Part shown: in pieces, positions 1,097-42,865 of the stretch
Layout: each line of letters begins with the position of its first letter
Numbering within the stretch: the stretch's first letter is position 1
IMG/VR virus record: IMGVR_UViG_3300028800_000164
Coordinates: 1 to 42,865 of that record
Length of the DNA: 42,865 bases
From: a virus
Reading direction: 5' to 3' (one strand)
Program-made: the position numbers and the translations under genes
Notes under the pieces: model-generated
What the model was told of the DNA's origin: nothing
What the model saw: only the letters and a program-made list of their open reading frames with translations
The model's database searches: none

Positions 1097-1219
1097 GTGG
1101 AGTCAATAGGGCAATCTAGCCTAAATAAAATGCTTAGTGATACATTTGCCCTAAGAGTAATAATCATTATTTTAGGGGCAACTTGTCTTTTTATTATCCT
1201 CCATGGAATAACGCATTAG
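1097..1219 (+). pseudogene. 3' remnant of a two-helix membrane protein gene
   Basis: This frame matches the C-terminal half of the membrane protein at 41377-41601: both read SSLNK, then a SDT segment, then RVI and a hydrophobic helix. Here the 5' half is missing, replaced by the reverse-strand ParB/HTH cassette. The remnant runs into the start of the portal gene, sharing about 37 nt in another frame. It is visible only by comparing the two versions of this locus in the window. Confidence 0.5.
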
Positions 1220-3315
1220 AGCCCAATCAAGGAAACGTCCGCCAGTGGTTGGACAATCTGTACAGCAAGTTTCAGCCCATCGAACAAGCCCGTTGGAACC
1301 AATCGAACATCGACACCCTCTTTTACGCAGGGGCTCAGGACTTCATTAACCGAAACTTCGGTACTGCGAACGTCTCCCAATACGGAAAGTTCTACTTCAA
1401 TCTGCTGCAACAGCCCGTGAATATGGTGACTGGCTATCAACGCCAGCACAGAAAATCTTTCAACTACATCCCTTGCGAGGGAGCCGACACCCAGACGACC
1501 GACCAGTATACTCGGCTAATGACGCATGTTGCCAATGCTGAGGGTATTCACGAGCAGTTTTCTAGAGCTTGCGAGCAATCTGCCATCACGGGAATGGTTC
1601 TTTTGCAGCCATACCTTGATTACACTGGAGATGATCCAGCACAAGGTCAATTAAAAGTGAAGCTGTGGGAGTACAATTCATTTCTAGTAGATCCGTATTT
1701 CCGCAACTACGACATGTCAGACGCGCAATTCGTTTGGTGTCAAGAGTACATATCAAAGAAAGAGGCACAGTCCCGTTTTCCCGATAAAATAGAAAACATA
1801 GCTCCAATGGCAGGCACTCCACAGAGATATGGAAGCTTTTACTTTCTTCCAGAGAACTACAACATGGCACGCAATGACCTCATGGTACTGAGCTATGTAT
1901 GGTACAAGTGGAAAAGAAAAAAGAAAAGGCTATATTCCAAGAAGCGAAATCAGTTCTTTGATTTTGCTCAAGGAAAAGAGGATCTCGATGCTTTGCTGTA
2001 TAATATTCCTGATCTAGAAGAGGCGACCGTTGAGGTTCCAACATGGAAATTGGCTGTCGTGCTCAACGACCAACTTATGTTCCAGGGCGATAACCCACTT
2101 GGATTTGATGATAGCCCCTTTATTCCCGTTTTTTGGAACTACGAGCCTCACATCAACTATTATGATCTGCGTTGCCGTGGTTTAGTGCGCACTATGCGCG
2201 ACTCGAACTACCTCATGAATCGCCGCATCATCATTAACCATGATATATCTGAGGCGACGATCAATCAGGGTTGGAAGCGAAAGGTCGGAGCTGTAGCCAA
2301 TGAAGATAACCTGAAGAAGTCGGGTCAAGGCTTTGATGTCATAGTAAATGAAGGCTATGAACTTACAGACGTCGAGAAGATTATACCGACTGCCGTACCA
2401 GAATCGGACTTTGCCCTGGCAGATCAGCTCAGAAGCCTTATTTTCGGCACGTCGGGTGTTGACCTAGAGAACTGGTCAGCTCAGAACGACAAGCAATCCA
2501 GCACGCTTACAACGATGATTAAGCAAGCCGCCAACTTGATGGTGTTGCAGAAGTACTTCGATCAGTGGGATCAGTCTTTAAAGTTCTTGGGCGATCGTTG
2601 CCTTCAGATCATTCTTAATAACTGGAGCGCCGAGAAGGTTGGCTTGATGATTGGAGAAGATCCTAGCCCCTTCTTCTACTCTAAGATATTCTCCAAGTTC
2701 CAGGTGATCGTTGAAGAGGGCGACTTAACGCCTACTCAGCAGAACATGCAAGCTCAGTCTCTCATGGATATCAACCAGGCCTTTGGAAGAGAGGTCTTCC
2801 CGCCTTCTATGATCGTGCCGCATCTTAACATCACTGGTAAAGCCGAGGCTATTCAGTTCCTTCAGCAGCAAGAACAGCAAGCACAAGCGGTACAAAGTGA
2901 AGCTACAAACATCCAGCATGCTTTTGAAGAGGCCAAACTTAAGGAGCTTTATGCAAGAGCGGCTAATTCTATCGCAGCAGCAAAAGAGAGATACGGCAGG
3001 TTCGAAAGTAACATCGGACTGCTCGAAGAGCGCATGGCCGAGGTCTCTAAGAACCGCGCTCTGTCTACTAAAGCGAAAATGGAAGCTCTTGAAAAAATGG
3101 TTGATGTCATAGGCAAGTATGGCGAGATCGAGACTATGCTCAAGATGAACGATATCCAGAGCTTTGAATATCAAGAAAAGGCCATAGAAGATGATGAGAA
3201 GACACAGGCTCACCAAGAAGCAGCGTCTAATGAGTTCTTGTCTAAGCTGATGAACCAATCCGGCGCTGGGCTTGGGAGTCCTTCGTCTGGACAACAACAG
3301 GCGATGAATCAATAA
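1183..3315 (+). CDS. Portal protein, P22-like family (intronless allele)
   Basis: A 710-residue protein with the sequence character of P22-type portal proteins: a conserved N-terminal segment around QWLDNLYSKF, then TLFYAGAQDFINRNFG, and a long helical, Gln/Glu-rich C-terminal barrel region (residues about 530-690). It forms the dodecameric ring at the capsid vertex through which DNA is packaged and ejected. The start is TTG at 1183, with AGGGG about 7 nt upstream; no ATG occurs near the conserved N-terminus. The same gene begins again at 42105, interrupted by an intron and a mini-insert; this copy is uninterrupted and acts as the reference for those insertions. Confidence 0.9.
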   Translation: MSFYYPPWNNALEPNQGNVRQWLDNLYSKFQPIEQARWNQSNIDTLFYAGAQDFINRNFGTANVSQYGKFYFNLLQQPVNMVTGYQRQHRKSFNYIPCEGADTQTTDQYTRLMTHVANAEGIHEQFSRACEQSAITGMVLLQPYLDYTGDDPAQGQLKVKLWEYNSFLVDPYFRNYDMSDAQFVWCQEYISKKEAQSRFPDKIENIAPMAGTPQRYGSFYFLPENYNMARNDLMVLSYVWYKWKRKKKRLYSKKRNQFFDFAQGKEDLDALLYNIPDLEEATVEVPTWKLAVVLNDQLMFQGDNPLGFDDSPFIPVFWNYEPHINYYDLRCRGLVRTMRDSNYLMNRRIIINHDISEATINQGWKRKVGAVANEDNLKKSGQGFDVIVNEGYELTDVEKIIPTAVPESDFALADQLRSLIFGTSGVDLENWSAQNDKQSSTLTTMIKQAANLMVLQKYFDQWDQSLKFLGDRCLQIILNNWSAEKVGLMIGEDPSPFFYSKIFSKFQVIVEEGDLTPTQQNMQAQSLMDINQAFGREVFPPSMIVPHLNITGKAEAIQFLQQQEQQAQAVQSEATNIQHAFEEAKLKELYARAANSIAAAKERYGRFESNIGLLEERMAEVSKNRALSTKAKMEALEKMVDVIGKYGEIETMLKMNDIQSFEYQEKAIEDDEKTQAHQEAASNEFLSKLMNQSGAGLGSPSSGQQQAMNQ

Positions 3316-10249: not shown

Positions 10250-10966
10250 TTAAGTGCAATATTTTTTCTCCCTTCGAGCCGTTGAGTTGGGGTTTTTGTC
10301 GCCTAATTTAGAACACGAGCGACAGTGGGTTGCTATTCCGTGAAGAATCTTAAATCTTGAAATCCTAGTTCTTTTTCCACAATCACACTCGCAAAAATAT
10401 CTCGCTCCCGTTGACTTATCTTCATCTAAGTCGAGTATGATTAGTGCCCCGAATCTTCGGCCTATGATGTCTACAAGGTCTGGAATAGGCCTTTTTTTAG
10501 GAAGCGTACCTTCTTTGAACATCTTAAGAAAACGATTAACTCCGTGTTTTTCAATGGATCTTTGAAATTGCCTACGAGTATATCCTGTGAGTTCTATTAA
10601 TTCCGCCTGGCAAATTTTTCCCACGTGAGTTTCGTAATACGCATTATTTCTTTTGTTTCTGTGGTTGATCTTTGGAGAAGTCCATCGGCAGTTCTCTTTG
10701 AAATACCCTTTATTGTTATCAATCCTGTCCAGATGGAGCCCAACTTTTGATCCTTGAGCCACATCTTCACAGAATCGATCGAAATCCGTCCACTCTTTGC
10801 AAAGGGAGATTCCTCTTTCACCATAATTTTTATATTGTTTGTTTTCGGGTCGTGTACATCTATAAAAAATACTTGTCCATATTCTGTATAGCCTAACTAT
10901 TTCCGTTGGTTTGATGATTGTTGTCATAAAAATAAATTTATCCTTATATTTAAGTTTCGGCCCCAT
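10250..10966 (-). CDS. Free-standing HNH-type homing endonuclease
   Basis: A 238-residue protein. Residues about 25-115 carry the phage HNH signature seen in homing endonucleases: RLYRIWTSIFYRC, GERGI, then LHLDRIDNNKGYFKENCRW and HRNKRNN. A C-terminal zinc-ribbon-like CECDCG and CRSC follows, probably for DNA binding. A second ATG at 10927 has AAGGA upstream at long spacing, so the start is uncertain. It is not inside an intron, but its divergent neighbour is the capsid gene carrying four introns. Free-standing endonucleases next to introns can drive their homing in trans. Confidence 0.8.
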   Translation of the reverse strand: MGPKLKYKDKFIFMTTIIKPTEIVRLYRIWTSIFYRCTRPENKQYKNYGERGISLCKEWTDFDRFCEDVAQGSKVGLHLDRIDNNKGYFKENCRWTSPKINHRNKRNNAYYETHVGKICQAELIELTGYTRRQFQRSIEKHGVNRFLKMFKEGTLPKKRPIPDLVDIIGRRFGALIILDLDEDKSTGARYFCECDCGKRTRISRFKILHGIATHCRSCSKLGDKNPNSTARREKKYCT

Positions 10967-11095: not shown

Positions 11096-13795
11096 ATGTC
11101 GATTACTACGACGGGGAATTTAGGGCCGATGATCCTTAGCATGAGGGATCTTTAAACTCTTTCTGATTGAGGTGGAAGTCCAGAATGTAACTGGATGACA
11201 CTGCGGAAGGTGAAAACCACCGTAAACGACTAAGCGAAAGAGACGCCGGGAGGCGTGTGCGATAGTCTAAACTCTATGGAGACATAGAGAGATCGAGTCG
11301 AAGAACTTGATCCGCCTAGGGAACTAGGTCATAAAAGTAATAGCTCGTCAAAGCTTAGCTCCGGCTATGCTTTACGTCCCTACCCCAACTATGAACTATT
11401 AACTTTAAATGTAGTTCTAAAATCTTTGGTAATTGACTTGGAAGCCCGACAGGGTAACAAGGGGCAAGTTTGAATACAGCCTGAACGACTAAACCCAGAG
11501 ACCCGAAAGGGATGCGATAGTCTGGACACTACGAATAAAAAAAGGTAGTGAGAGCGATCCGAAGAGGTTGCTCCGCCTAGAAATAGGTCTAAAAGTAACA
11601 GAATGATTCTCGTGTGCGACAAAGTGTCGATGCCAGCTAATGGCGGGACTACTTGCCGTTTCATGAGACCAAGAGCTTTGGTTCCTCCTACTGTCCAGTT
11701 GGGGAACTCGGGGATTGATCCCCCAGCTCAGGTGCCACAACGCGACATCATTGATGCGCAAATGGCATTCTTCGGGACAGGCTGCATTTTAGATTGTGCA
11801 GCATGATTTGGCGTAAAAAAAAGAATTAACGAACAGGTAATTTTACAAGACCAAGAGGGAGTTCTCGCTTGGGTTTCTGAAAGATTAGCTGTGGCGATGC
11901 GCCAAGCCGAGGATAGAGATAATGTCCTCGATAAACTAACTCTGATTGACTTGGAAACCCGACAGGGTGACAAGGGCCAAGGGGTTCAATTAGCAGAAGG
12001 AACTAAATGTTCGAAATCAGCTTTAAGAAAGCCTTTAGCATTAAGACGGCACATCTCGACTCGGATGTCTTCTCTAATAGCTATTGTCTCTGGATCGAGG
12101 GGAGTATGAGCGCCGAAACCTTTTTGGGTGTAAGTGGCTCGGAACTGAAGGATCAGTTCGGCTTGCCTCTTTTTAAGAACGAGGTAGGGCAGCAGCTGCG
12201 TACACAGGTCGACAAGGCGATGGCCTTGTATTACCCACTCGTAGATGTATCGTTCGTGTATCCCGTTTTTCTTGAAGATAGAGCGTTTGTGTTTCTTGGA
12301 TTTGTGATTCATGTTGGCAAAATGCTCCTCAATCCAATCAAAAAGTTCTTTTCTCGTGTTAGAGATATTAAGAACAGATCGAAAGTTGGGGTTTTTGTAT
12401 CGGTTGTATTTGGCGGGATTCACTCTGTAAATGCAGAGAGAACCCTCTCCATCGACGATACCAGCAAGATAGGCCAGTTTGAGGGGATCATAAATAACTT
12501 TTTCGTATTCGATAATTGGCATTCGCAAGCTCCTTGTGTGTAGTTGCATGTACATTGTCGCATATGGGCTAATTAAACGCCAGGCTGAACGACTAAGTGA
12601 GATAGCGCCGAAAGGTGATGCGATAGTCTGAGCAAGAACTATAAATAAAATTCTTGAGGGAGATCCGAAGAGGTTTCCCCGCCAACTATAAGGGAATTCC
12701 GAATAGTTGGTCATAAAAGTAACAGTGTGCTTATCCTCCGTGATTATATTGTTTCGGCGGCTAGCCAGATCAATGCAGGGGGGGGGTCTAATGGAGACAA
12801 TCCCACAAATTTGGGAGTCTCTGACTTCTCGTTAGTGGCGACTACTCTCGATACTAATAACGCTTATAAATTTATGAGCGGTATCGAAGGTATGGACAGG
12901 TTTAAAATACCAGACCTGTATAAATTTTGGGTAATGGACTTGGAGTGCCTGGCTGCTTAAGCAGAGGTTAACAAGGGGCAAGATTATGGATATGGTTGGG
13001 TATATAATCGCTGAAGCAGACGGGAAATGTTTCATGTGTGGAAACTATTGCATGGAATGTGGATGTTGGTGCAAGGGATTGGATTTTTCTTACCTAGAAA
13101 ATAATCAGCCTGAACGACTAAACCCCGAGACTCACGATGCATAAATGTACTGATGGAAGGCTCTTTGTAGAAGGAAATCAACTGTCTTGGTTTGATATTT
13201 TAAAAGGTTGGTCTTTTTTAAGAGTCGTCCGCTGTCCTCTATGCAAAAAGAGATGCGATAGTCTGAGCCAAGCGAATATATGAAGGCTTGGAGAGCGATC
13301 CGAAGAGGTTGCTCCGCCATTTTGTTGAGGTCAACGAAATGGTCATAAAAGTAACAGAAAAGTGGTACCGGTCCAGTACGCTCTGCATATTTTATGCTGA
13401 GTTCTACTGAGCTTCAAACGGATTTTGATGGTTTAACTGGTTCAGGATTCCTGTCCCAGTGGAACTATCCAACAAATGCTTCGGCACTTCCGAGCGAGTA
13501 CGGTTCTGTGTTTAACATCAGAATCTTAACTAGCTCTGAGGCTCCCGTTGCACGCGCGTCGTCTAAAAATGGTAACGATGTTTACTACAACTCTGTTGTT
13601 GGTAAGCAAGCGATCACGCATATAAATCAGGATGGTTATTCCATGAACCTGATCTATCGTGATCCTTACTATTCTGGGATGTTAGCACAGAATGCCACTT
13701 TGGCGGTCAAGTTCGCGCAAGCGCAGGCGATCACCCAAGATACAGCTATTAGAAACCTACTTTGCACTAGACTCAGCTCTAGCGCAGGACCATAG
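11096..13795 (+). CDS. Major capsid protein, N4-gp56 family, five exons
   Basis: Exons by my reconstruction: 11096-11136, 11348-11399, 11606-11914 (minus 11788-11823), 12730-12902 and 13363-13795. The joined frame is 972 nt, 323 residues, the usual length for the family. Family-like blocks are VCDKVSMPANGGTT, LGNSG, NEQVILQDQ, MRQAED, LRDYIVSAASQIN, GSNGDNPT and FGTGPVRSAYF. Each group I junction was set by P1 pairing with a U.G pair, a terminal intron G and frame conservation. Unspliced mRNA would make only a 19-residue peptide, so splicing is essential for the virion. The stop is followed by the RBS of the next gene. Confidence 0.85.
11137..11347 (+). ncRNA. Group I intron 1 in the capsid gene (211 nt)
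   Basis: 5' exon GATCCT pairs with the guide GGGATC (P1, with U.G at the cut). The core has TGGAAGTCC, GACTAAG and GATAGTC (P7 strands), and the 3' end is AGTAATA plus GCTCG, terminal G. P10 pairs the first bases of exon 2 with the guide. It has no ORF; at about 210 nt it is a minimal self-splicing intron. Confidence 0.85.
11400..11605 (+). ncRNA. Group I intron 2 in the capsid gene (206 nt)
   Basis: 5' exon GAACTAT pairs with GTAGTTC (P1, U.G at the cut). The core reads TTGACTTGGAAGCCC, GACTAAACC, GGGATGCGATAGTC; the 3' end is AGTAACA plus GAATG, terminal G. Exon 3 ATT pairs in P10. The downstream ATG at 11603 is partly intronic and is not a true start. Confidence 0.87.
11788..11823 (+). 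other. Coreless 36-nt intron-like insert in capsid exon 3
   Basis: The 5' exon end GCTGCAT can pair with the guide GTGCAGC (11796-11802), giving a seven-pair P1 with U.G at the cut. The first exon bases after the final G (AATT, 11824-11827) pair with the guide flank GATT (11792-11795) as P10. Between guide and 3' end there are only about 21 nt, with no P3-P8 core. The insert holds an in-frame TGA (11804-11806); exact removal joins TGC AT and A ATT and restores the family sequence and frame. Its tail has GATTTGG, like TAATTTGG in the portal insert at 42173-42205. Confidence 0.7.
11915..12729 (+). ncRNA. Group I intron 3 in the capsid gene (815 nt) with antisense LAGLIDADG gene
   Basis: 5' exon GAGGAT pairs with GTCCTC (P1, U.G). 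The core is TTGACTTGGAAACCC before the insertion and GACTAAGT, GGTGATGCGATAGTC after it; the 3' end is AGTAACA plus GTGTG. P10 uses TTATC of exon 4. The homing endonuclease gene sits in a peripheral loop between the two core halves, on the strand opposite to the intron. Confidence 0.87.
11986..12522 (-). CDS. LAGLIDADG homing endonuclease, antisense within intron 3
   Basis: A 178-residue single-motif LAGLIDADG enzyme: LAYLAGIVDGEGSLCI near the N-terminus holds the catalytic helix and acidic residue. The rest has the family's usual basic strands (NISNTRKELFDWIEEHF, LPYLVLKKRQAELIL). Single-motif members act as homodimers cutting intronless alleles. The start at 12522 is chosen because AAGGAG lies 8 nt upstream. 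The gene runs against the intron and host gene, so it needs its own promoter and cannot be translated from capsid mRNA. Confidence 0.88.
   Translation of the reverse strand: MPIIEYEKVIYDPLKLAYLAGIVDGEGSLCIYRVNPAKYNRYKNPNFRSVLNISNTRKELFDWIEEHFANMNHKSKKHKRSIFKKNGIHERYIYEWVIQGHRLVDLCTQLLPYLVLKKRQAELILQFRATYTQKGFGAHTPLDPETIAIREDIRVEMCRLNAKGFLKADFEHLVPSAN
12986..13144 (+). CDS. 52-residue Cys-rich ORF in intron 4
   Basis: ATG at 12986 with AAGGGG upstream. The peptide has six Cys in a short span (CFMCGNYCMECGCWC), compatible with zinc binding. It continues through the conserved core segment CTGAACGACTAAAC, so its C-terminus is read from ribozyme core. No homologue recognised; it could be a remnant of a zinc-finger endonuclease domain or an intron-stabilising peptide (speculative). 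Confidence 0.45.
   Translation: MDMVGYIIAEADGKCFMCGNYCMECGCWCKGLDFSYLENNQPERLNPETHDA
13137..13283 (+). CDS. 48-residue zinc-finger-like ORF in intron 4
   Basis: ATG at 13137 overlaps the stop of the previous ORF. The peptide has a CPLCKKRC knuckle near its C-terminus and an aromatic middle (LSWFDILKGWSFL). It fills the loop between the two P7 strands and reads out through the conserved GATGCGATAGTCTGAGCC core. Function unknown; coding is supported mainly by the overlap and the Cys pattern. Confidence 0.4.
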   Translation: MHKCTDGRLFVEGNQLSWFDILKGWSFLRVVRCPLCKKRCDSLSQANI

Positions 13796-41207: not shown

Positions 41208-41351
41208 ATGTTTCAGCTGGTTTTATCCCACACAACCGAATATGTCAATGCAAATCTGATCCAAATCGAGCGCTTCAAGAAAAATACGGTCGAGGCCGAC
41301 GAATTCTGGTTTCCCTACAACTCCAAAGGGTTTGGATTCTTCCAGTTGTAG
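41208..41351 (+). CDS. Possible 47-residue ORF crossing the repeated segment
   Basis: ATG at 41208; the product has protein-like composition (LIQIERFKKNTVEADEFWF) and ends at a TAG in the repeat, also found at 118-120. There is no clear RBS, and the reverse strand carries the ParB C-terminus here. It could instead be the 3' end of a larger gene lost upstream. The 100 nt before it show only fragments. Confidence 0.3.
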   Translation: MFQLVLSHTTEYVNANLIQIERFKKNTVEADEFWFPYNSKGFGFFQL

Positions 41352-41357
41352 ACGTTT
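41232..41357. repeat. Internal copy of the left-end repeat
   Basis: Identical to 1-126. Downstream of here the sequence is an alternative version of 127-1584. Confidence 0.85.
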
Positions 41358-41376
41358 TTTTCTCACAACGTTCCCG

Positions 41377-41601
41377 ATGTGGATTCTCATTGGGTTATTT
41401 TTCATTCTTTTAACAATTTTAGATTTTGCTCTAAATACAATAACAAAAATGATGCCAGATTCGGATAAAGAAGTCAATGGGACATCTAGCCTAAATAAAA
41501 TATTTAGTGATACTCTTGCCTCAAGAGTAATAGTTCTAATTATTCTTAGTTTCATATATAATAACCCTCATTATTCTGGGGGTTTGTGTCAAAAGAAGTA
41601 A
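41377..41601 (+). CDS. Two-helix membrane protein (intact in this allele)
   Basis: A 74-residue protein: helix one about residues 1-20 (MWILIGLFFILLTILDFAL), a polar loop (DSDKEVNGTSSLNKIFSD) and helix two (RVIVLIILSFIY). The ATG lacks an RBS; a TTG at 41332 gives 15 extra residues. Its C-terminal half matches the remnant at 1097-1219. It overlaps the HNH gene by 16 nt. Confidence 0.5.
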   Translation: MWILIGLFFILLTILDFALNTITKMMPDSDKEVNGTSSLNKIFSDTLASRVIVLIILSFIYNNPHYSGGLCQKK

Positions 41602-42059
41602 AAGTTTATTTCGGTAAAAAATTCTACCTTCAGTCTAGTGGCTATTGGGTCAACTGGATGCCCATCCACGCCCAGCGCTGGGTTTGGATCTGTCATAATG
41701 GTATGCCTCCCGATGGTATGGATGTTCATCACAAAAATGGCGATAAAGGGAATAATGAAATAGAGAATCTTGAGCTTTTAAATCGCTCTGACCATTTAAA
41801 AAAGCATTGGGAAGAAGGACGTTTTGATTTAGAAAAAAGACGCCTTCAACTCGACAAGGTTCGGCCTATCGATTGGTTGAAGAGCGATGAGGGCAGAAGG
41901 GCAATTAGCGAAAAGGGCAGGGCGGTTTGGAAAGAAAGAAAGGCGACGGCTATTGCCTGCGGATATTGTGGTAAGCAGGCCTTTTTTAAGAGGTGGGCCA
42001 GATTTTGTTGCAAAAGCTGCTACATGAAATGGAGGCATCGCGCGGGGTTGTGTAAATAA
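41586..42059 (+). CDS. HNH homing endonuclease with zinc-ribbon tail
   Basis: A 157-residue protein from GTG at 41586 with GGGGG upstream. The HNH site is HAQRWVWICHNGMPPDGMD, then VHHKNGDKGNNEIENLELL. The C-terminus has CGYCGKQ and CCKSC, a probable DNA-binding zinc ribbon. It lies 45 nt before the portal start codon of this allele and is absent from the other allele. The adjacent portal gene carries an intron and a mini-insert that it may help spread. Confidence 0.85.
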   Translation: MSKEVKVYFGKKFYLQSSGYWVNWMPIHAQRWVWICHNGMPPDGMDVHHKNGDKGNNEIENLELLNRSDHLKKHWEEGRFDLEKRRLQLDKVRPIDWLKSDEGRRAISEKGRAVWKERKATAIACGYCGKQAFFKRWARFCCKSCYMKWRHRAGLCK

Positions 42060-42104
42060 AATTTATAATATACCATCCATTATATAAGAAATTAGGAGGT
42101 ATAT

Positions 42105-42865
42105 ACGTCTTTTTACTACCCACCTTGGAATAATGCACTTGAGCCCAATCAAGGGAATGTAAGACAGTGGCTTTAATGTCGGGCCACTTAATTTGGAATT
42201 CGTGGTGACAATTTATATTCCAAGTTTCAGCCTTGATCTAGGGGCTGATAAAACCATCTCTAATTGACTTGGAAGCCTAAACCGAAAGGCATGGCGACAG
42301 GGCGGAAGCTGTAAGCACCGTGAGAGACTAAACGAGAAGGCCCGAAAGGGATGCGATAGTCCGATCCGAACAACGAAAGGTTCGGAGGTTGGCAGAAATG
42401 ACTAACCCCGCCGTTAGGCGAGTAACAATTTGATAGAGCAAAGCCGCTGGAACCAGTCCAATATTGATACTCTGTTTTACGCAGGGGCGCAGGACTTTAT
42501 TAACCGAAACTTCGGTACGGCGAACGTCTCCCAATACGGCAAGTTCTACTTCAATTTGCTGCAACAACCTGTAAATATGGTCACAGGCTATCAAAGGCAG
42601 CATCGCAAATCTTTTAATTATATTCCTTGCGAAGGGGCCGATACTCAAACGACGGACCAGTATACACGACTAATGGCGCACGTTGCTAATGCTGAAGGTA
42701 TTCACGAGCAGTTCTCTCGTGCCTGTGAGCAATCGGCTATCACGGGAATGGTTCTTTTGCAGCCATACCTTGATTACACTGGAGATGATCCAGCACAAGG
42801 TCAATTAAAAGTGAAGCTGTGGGAGTACAATTCATTTCTAGTAGATCCGTATTTCCGCAACTACG
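42105..42865 (+). CDS. Portal protein, second version (5' part only, interrupted, cut by window end)
   Basis: The same N-terminus as the gene at 1183, with many synonymous differences. Exons are 42105-42172, 42206-42233 and 42433-42865. Only two amino-acid changes are seen in the part after the intron (Ala to Ser and Thr to Ala). The codon in the start position is ACG, 5 nt after AGGAGG; no in-frame ATG or GTG is near. From 42739 it is identical to the first copy. Confidence 0.8.
42173..42205 (+). other. Coreless 33-nt intron-like insert in portal allele B
   Basis: The 5' exon end AGTGGCT pairs with GGCCACT (42182-42188), a seven-pair P1 with U.G at the cut. After the final G (42205) exon bases TGACA pair with TGTCG in the guide flank (42177-42181), a five-pair P10. 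Only 17 nt lie between guide and 3' end, so there is no ribozyme core. Two in-frame TAA codons lie inside. Exact removal gives CTT GAC AAT, matching the uninterrupted allele at 1249-1257. The tail has TAATTTGG, as in the capsid insert. Confidence 0.75.
42234..42432 (+). ncRNA. Group I intron in portal allele B (199 nt)
   Basis: 5' exon CAGCCT pairs with GGGCTG (P1, U.G at the cut). The core has TTGACTTGGAAGCC, GACTAAACG and GGGATGCGATAGTC; the 3' end is AGTAACA plus ATTTG. P10 uses TAGA of the next exon. The allele at 1183 shows the same exons joined without it (CAGCCC ATCGAA), which fixes both splice sites. It is closely related to capsid introns 1-4 and has no ORF. Confidence 0.9.
42739..42865. 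repeat. Right-end repeat, identical to 1585-1711
   Basis: 127 nt identical to the inside of the first portal copy; immediately upstream the two copies differ at many codon third positions. It marks where the alternative allele rejoins the main sequence. Confidence 0.85.

Follow-up and report, generated by a model that had tools for sequence, protein, structure and literature searches.

How does a phage make its major capsid protein from a gene that is broken by 36 nucleotides (nt) with an in-frame stop codon? The question is raised by an uncultured phage record in IMG/VR, IMGVR_UViG_3300028800_000164, all 42,865 nt of which were analysed and are called the window below. Its major capsid gene (11096-13795, + strand) was rebuilt in six exons by spliced alignment to intact relatives and, once spliced, gives a protein of 323 amino acids (aa). 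The capsid identity is based on a relative, L018, that matches the phrog_1357 major head protein. Here we interpret the interruption, at 11788-11823, as a guide-only (coreless) group I-type 'satellite intron', or mini-intron, which is quite likely spliced by the core of the next intron downstream, at 11915-12729.

The insert, its guide and its recurrence

The features of the insert and its surroundings are as follows.

11788-11823, + strand: guide-only mini-intron of 36 nt at site 91; preceded by U, with a terminal G at 11823
11781-11787, + strand: 5' strand of P1, in the 5' exon (GCTGCAT); pairs with 11796-11802
11796-11802, + strand: P1 part of the guide (GTGCAGC); its first G stands opposite the splice-site U
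11792-11795, + strand: P10 part of the guide (GATT); pairs with the 3' exon at 11824-11827 (AATT)
11804-11806, + strand: in-frame TGA; the unspliced reading ends ...C-I-L-D-C-A-A-stop
11807-11815, + strand: tail strand of helix A (TTTGGCGTA); pairs with 11898-11906 (p=0.003 against tail shuffles)
11898-11906, + strand: exon strand of helix A (TGCGCCAAG); ends 8 nt short of the 5' splice site of the downstream intron

A first-pass annotation of this DNA had described an insert after TGC AT with an in-frame TGA, a seven-pair P1 with U.G at the cut, a P10 of AATT with GATT, a terminal G and no catalytic core. All of this was recovered at the positions listed (the last P10 pair is G.U), and the insert gave no match to our core profile. 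The third pairing, helix A, had been overlooked. Relatives without the insert read TGC AT|A ATC AAC at the same position. Site-91 inserts were found in nine further independent contigs (L008, L013, L049, L050, L463, L543, L573, L575, L576), with lengths of 32-43 nt, different sequences and the same architecture. The site-91 P1 covaries, as GCTGCAT/GTGCAGC and GCTGCGT/GCGCAGC, an A-U pair changing to G-C.

The relatives comprised 117 non-redundant capsid loci, aligned with a dynamic-programming splice aligner; three DNA pattern scans for mini-introns yielded chiefly chance matches and a few new capsid loci. Inserts were present in 41 of the 117 loci, these 41 coming from many metagenomes, with a total of 47 inserts of 30-93 nt at four sites (codons 87, 91, 103 and 113). 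The portal gene holds eight distinct inserts of the same kind at codons 7, 22, 31 and 35. In all, 53 distinct mini-introns lie at eight sites in two genes. Because their lengths are generally not multiples of three, and all three kinds of stop codon occur among them, they must be bypassed at the RNA or the protein level.

A U before the insert and a terminal G, the ends of a group I intron, were found in every mini-intron (47 capsid and 9 portal records). One contiguous guide, with a P1 of at least six pairs having G opposite U and a P10 of at least four, was present in 51 of the 53. The same P1 and P10 lengths were reached by 0.2% of shuffled inserts and by none of 2098 inserts swapped between sites. 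P1 was paired in 361 of 364 cells and P10 in 248 of 260, and compensatory changes within a site occurred in seven P1 and five P10 columns. All four Watson-Crick pairs (T-A, A-T, C-G and G-C) occur at the third P10 position of site 87, and site 103 shows the covariants GTATT/AATAC, GTGTT/AACAC and GTACT/AGTAC.

Since Rfam missed the window introns, a core profile was built from 52 short introns of the same genes. At the gathering score Rfam RF00028 found nothing in the window, and in nine other loci tested the score was reached only by the divergent F89 intron of L079. None of the 47 capsid mini-introns matched the core profile, whereas every full intron did. With 30-93 nt there is no room for a core, and the P3-P8 core with its G-binding site in P7 is absent from the mini-introns. 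Over the 52 intron sequences, P3 was paired in 95% of cells, P4, P6 and P7 in about 100% (259 of 260 for P7) and P8 in 92%; the core columns show compensatory changes, the P3/P7 pseudoknot included, as in a genuine group I core.

Nine site-103 inserts of about 950 nt likewise proved to be without a core (one weak partial match); they carry a gene for a two-domain LAGLIDADG protein and have their guide close to the 3' end, so there are coreless introns that bring a homing gene of their own. L048 has a 93-nt form of this insert. Separately, the site-89 introns of L072 and L079 measure about 1270 nt, and the L072 product is LAGLIDADG-like by eye.

A constant downstream partner and a third helix

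The intron that follows the insert in the window, its partner, has the following features.

11915-12729, + strand: full group I intron at site 122; profile matches, core family validated by covariation
11908-11914 with 11924-11930, + strand: the partner's own P1
about 11920-11984 and 12575-12728, + strand: pieces of the partner core
11986-12714, - strand: open reading frame (ORF) of 242 aa inside the partner, antisense to the intron

The order of elements is the same throughout. In all 50 capsid loci with a mini-intron or a 950-nt coreless insert, each such element is directly followed by a full intron, and loci with two mini-introns have the order mini-full-mini-full. In the portal gene every mini-intron is likewise directly followed by a full intron. 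The chance of this from order only is about 10^-8.65 with each of 39 architectures counted once, a value that is approximate given the relatedness of the phages. Many full introns have no mini-intron, so a partner has no need of the mini-intron, although the reverse is not true.

The tail of the mini-intron pairs with exon sequence that mostly ends 7-10 nt before the partner's 5' splice site, adjoining the partner's P1. Against shuffled tails this helix A had p<0.05 in 40 of the 53 mini-introns (combined p=3.5e-43). Compensatory change within one partner site was found in 17 of 64 helix A columns: the variants before F116 are TCTAGCC/GGCTAGA (L048), TCTCGCC/GGCGAGA (L056) and ACTCGCC/GGCGAGT (L015), and three variants precede F25 of the portal gene. 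In predicted folds the mini-intron P1, helix A and the partner's P1 form together, with linkers of 0-3 nt and median pair probabilities of 0.96, 0.94 and 0.98, respectively; the helix A of the window insert has a predicted pair probability of 0.90. A few site-87 mini-introns with distant partners have two short pairings.

In the mechanism that we propose, the guide would form P1, with its U.G, on the 5' exon and P10 on the 3' exon, and the last base of the insert would act as omega-G. Helix A, lying in the P2 position beside the partner's P1, would hand a second P1 to the same core, so that one core would serve two splicing reactions. The order P1 - helix A - P3 suggests that helix A replaces P2, which this intron family lacks. 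Catalysis by the partner is proposed because the core is absent, the partner is constant and helix A is present. Since the full intron stands constantly downstream and the tail pairs beside its P1, the core used would most likely be that of the next intron on the same RNA, here 11915-12729. The first-pass annotation had proposed splicing in trans by the cores of the four complete introns of the transcript; the need for an outside core agrees with the 53 distinct examples, the two genes and the covariation, while the choice of any of the four gives way to the next downstream intron as the likeliest.

The insert could also be spliced by whatever group I core, free or resident, is present in the infected cell, helix A then serving for timing or folding only. 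P1, P10 and omega-G would in principle be enough for a core acting in trans, and engineered spliceozymes and trans-excision ribozymes work in this way (PMC4094466, PMC6155759). We regard this as unlikely given that all 47 capsid mini-introns have a full intron downstream and only 22 have one upstream, that the order test gave 10^-8.65, and that helix A is tailored to, and covaries with, the exon beside that particular partner's P1. Protein machinery, either an endonuclease with a ligase or a maturase, might instead remove the insert without any intron core, and LAGLIDADG proteins do occur in these loci, some members of that family acting as maturases (PMC3073962). This is improbable: the signals specific to group I (U.G, P10 and omega-G) are kept at all sites, several partners are about 200 nt long with no room for a long ORF (L354 and L575, for example), and the partner rule is the same in two genes. 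Exon skipping, from the 5' site of the mini-intron to the 3' site of the partner, is disfavoured as P10 fits the exon right after the mini-intron.

The antisense ORF of 242 aa holds a motif, LAGIVDGEG, that resembles LAGLIDADG by eye; Pfam gave no match to the ORF. Another ORF, of 238 aa, lies upstream of the capsid gene (10250-10966, - strand), also with no Pfam match.

AA tails on the unspliced reading

The remainder of the capsid gene is laid out as follows, and bears out the four complete introns (11137-11347, 11400-11605, 11915-12729 and 12903-13362) that had been claimed for it.

11096-11136, 11348-11399, 11606-11787, 11824-11914, 12730-12902 and 13363-13795, + strand: capsid exons
11137-11347, + strand: full group I intron at site 13 (early; no AA tail), profile match
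11400-11605, + strand: full group I intron at site 31 (early; no AA tail), profile match
12903-13362, + strand: full group I intron at site 179, with its own tail ...DLECLAA-stop

When the capsid RNA is read unspliced, the reading ends in AA-stop in 44 of 52 mini-introns and in 52 of 58 solo full introns (those at codon 60 or later with no mini-intron in front). The same ending is seen in only 5 of 52 partner introns and in none of 20 introns at codon 33 or earlier. The other two frames give none among the 52 mini-introns or the 58 solo introns, and one in 70 long ORFs of the window ends in this way. At site 87, the 14 mini-introns that contain no stop all have lengths that leave a remainder of 2 on division by three, and the following exon then reads RLAA, RLVA or similar before a stop. 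In the window the intron at 12903-13362 carries ...LECLAA and the mini-intron ...DCAA; the mini-intron's partner and the two early introns carry none.

Tags added by transfer-messenger RNA (tmRNA, ssrA) end in LAA. The unspliced readings found here end similarly, in ...LAA, ...AAA or ...KAA, with the difference that the tail is encoded by the introns and mini-introns themselves. The AA tail is likely an ssrA-like tag on the truncated capsid protein made from unspliced RNA, with the mini-intron supplying it when its partner has none. The stop and tail of the mini-intron would halt ribosomes on the unspliced RNA short of the partner, and the tail would mark the truncated protein for degradation, putatively by ClpXP and presumably to the benefit of the phage. 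An early in-frame stop in introns is already known (PMC3073962, PMC3984707), and we found no report of an intron-coded degron in the open-access literature searched. No tmRNA was found in the virus record.

A mini-intron that is a degron carrier and nothing more was ruled out as the whole story, since the portal mini-introns at codons 7-35 have no AA tail but still possess P1, P10, helix A and a partner.

Alternatives, related elements and meaning

The gap in gene 60 of phage T4 is skipped in translation. Ribosomes might hop over the present insert in the same way: the inserts are short, structured and contain stops, and at site 91 ATT codons flank the gap. The T4 gap, which lies beside the mobA endonuclease gene (PMC2988022), is comparable as a short gap in an essential phage gene with a homing-endonuclease association, but the mini-introns have splice signals and no matched landing codons. 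At site 87 bypassing would need a Gly landing codon immediately before ACN, and the inserts end there in TAG, AAG, TTG, GCG, ACG or AGG, none of them a Gly codon. It also gives no role to a covarying P10, an invariant U.G, a terminal G or a helix A beside another intron. Bypassing, one of the alternatives offered in the first-pass annotation, is contradicted by these facts and by the recurrence of the inserts, and we consider it very improbable. Readthrough of the stop, or a recoded TGA, would add 12 residues with no RNA event and suits the window insert (36 nt with a single TGA), but hardly inserts of 32, 33, 38 and 43 nt with TAA at the same site in relatives, most of which lack extra residues, and can be practically discounted. 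The same holds for an assembly artefact or a defective genome with a lost core, the other alternatives first offered: the window is a single contig whose end holds a divergent second portal start, but the recurrence of such inserts in 41 capsid loci of many metagenomes, in differing sequences that retain the pairing, contradicts it.

Several points weigh against splicing by the partner core. One core would have to serve two P1s, an arrangement for which the literature searched gave no natural precedent. In 13 of the 53 mini-introns helix A is weak (p>=0.05), and for the three F98 partners it lies elsewhere (14 nt away) or is absent. The partner rule could also reflect mini-introns that spread or persist only upstream of such introns for translational reasons. 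The phages are related and the counts not independent, so that the p-values overstate the independent evidence; firmer ground is given by the covariation and by the recurrence of the inserts at eight sites in two genes.

The window holds a second example of the proposed arrangement in the portal gene.

42173-42205, + strand: guide-only mini-intron at the portal start in a variant contig end; P1 GTGGCT/GGCCAC, P10 TGACA/TGTCG, helix A AATTTGGAAT/ATTCCAAGTT; an identical insert occurs in L584
42234-42432, + strand: full group I intron, partner of this portal mini-intron

Positions 1-126 equal 41232-41357 (a circular overlap), and the remaining contig end, within 41232-42865, holds this divergent portal start, about 89% identical over 426 nt, with the mini-intron and intron. 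The portal gene at 1183-3315 is uninterrupted. In a search of a phage collection the capsid segment used as query gave no match, and the portal and terminase relatives were only distant. Eight further portal inserts of 47-53 nt, candidate mini-introns by length, were set apart: they lack group I signals and form near-perfect hairpins of at least about 17 pairs. They occur in L026, L575, L608, L610, L622 and L647 (codon 35), L065 (codon 172) and L602 (codon 221), directly after CGG (seven) or CCG (one), with a codon for the same amino acid (CGN/AGA, CCA) right after, and look like candidates for ribosome bypassing.

A second form of core sharing may exist in one clade. Eight loci with an intron at site 69 (L034, L037, L041, L048, L053 and L056-L058) carry an insert of 1 nt (G) or 4 nt (TAAG, TTAG) at site 81, after U and ending in G; the insert is present in 8 of 8 loci with this intron and in 0 of 109 others, the loci falling in few clades. 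In each locus tested, site 81 is matched by no guide other than that of the site-69 intron, save for one weaker second match in L056. The P10 half of this guide makes four pairs at site 81 (GCGC/GCGT and GCAC/GTGT) and does not fit the intron's own 3' exon. The resident's guide may also remove 'introns' of 1 to 4 nt; this resembles the excision of as little as one nucleotide by designed trans-excision-splicing ribozymes (Baum and Testa 2005, as cited in PMC6155759). In the one-G clade (L041, L048, L053, L056-L058) one G is also missing at codon 95, with AATAGCAG or AATAACAG for AAT GAR CAG, so neither frame reads through. At capsid codon 6 of L076 two additional nt (ACGGGT|TG|AAC) give rise to a stop, and the locus yielded no guide that fits them.

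Group III introns of euglenid chloroplasts and spliceosomal introns are short, keep their splice signals, have lost the ribozyme and are served by parts elsewhere. Those introns derive from the group II pathway, and the mini-introns would be the group I counterpart. Phage group I introns such as T4 td share with them the U|...G| ends, the P1/P10 guide, a location in essential genes and an early stop (PMC3984707, PMC3073962), but have their own P3-P9 core, whereas the mini-introns have none and would depend on another intron. In spliceozymes (PMC4094466) and trans-excision-splicing ribozymes (Bell, Johnson and Testa 2002, as cited in PMC6155759) a core removes a coreless internal segment, even a very short one, and joins the flanks; these systems are designed, with the guide in the ribozyme, whereas the present system would be natural, with the guide placed in the excised segment and helix A as the link to a resident intron. 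Organellar trans-spliced group I introns (PMC3873408, PMC10027690) also need non-contiguous RNA parts, but are one intron in pieces, while here complete and coreless introns, each with its own borders, would share one core. Natural group I ribozymes have been described as cis-splicing (PMC6155759), and removal of a coreless intron by a group I core as engineering (PMC4094466). In the open-access literature searched we found nothing comparable among coreless, degenerate or trans-served phage group I introns, and no living group I example of the loss of catalytic parts.

The capsid genes that look broken are probably intact, and genome annotation would change. Spliceosomal introns are thought to go back to ribozyme introns whose own catalytic parts were lost. 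In dozens of phages coreless introns appear to stand next to the complete intron that would serve them, with an intermediate in the form of a coreless intron still carrying its homing endonuclease, so that RNAs of about 300 nt could be used to study this loss of the core in vitro. On balance we lean towards a natural, spliceosome-like division of labour among group I introns, in which guide-only satellites would be excised by a resident core through a P2-like helix and ssrA-like tails would lead to destruction of the proteins made from unspliced RNA. From the AA tails, which depend on position, one would learn how phages deal with the translation of unspliced RNA, and such tails would be a predictive sign for unrecognised introns. 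Judged from the sequences, these phages probably hold natural guide-only satellite introns served by a neighbouring ribozyme, a reaction so far known only from engineered RNAs.

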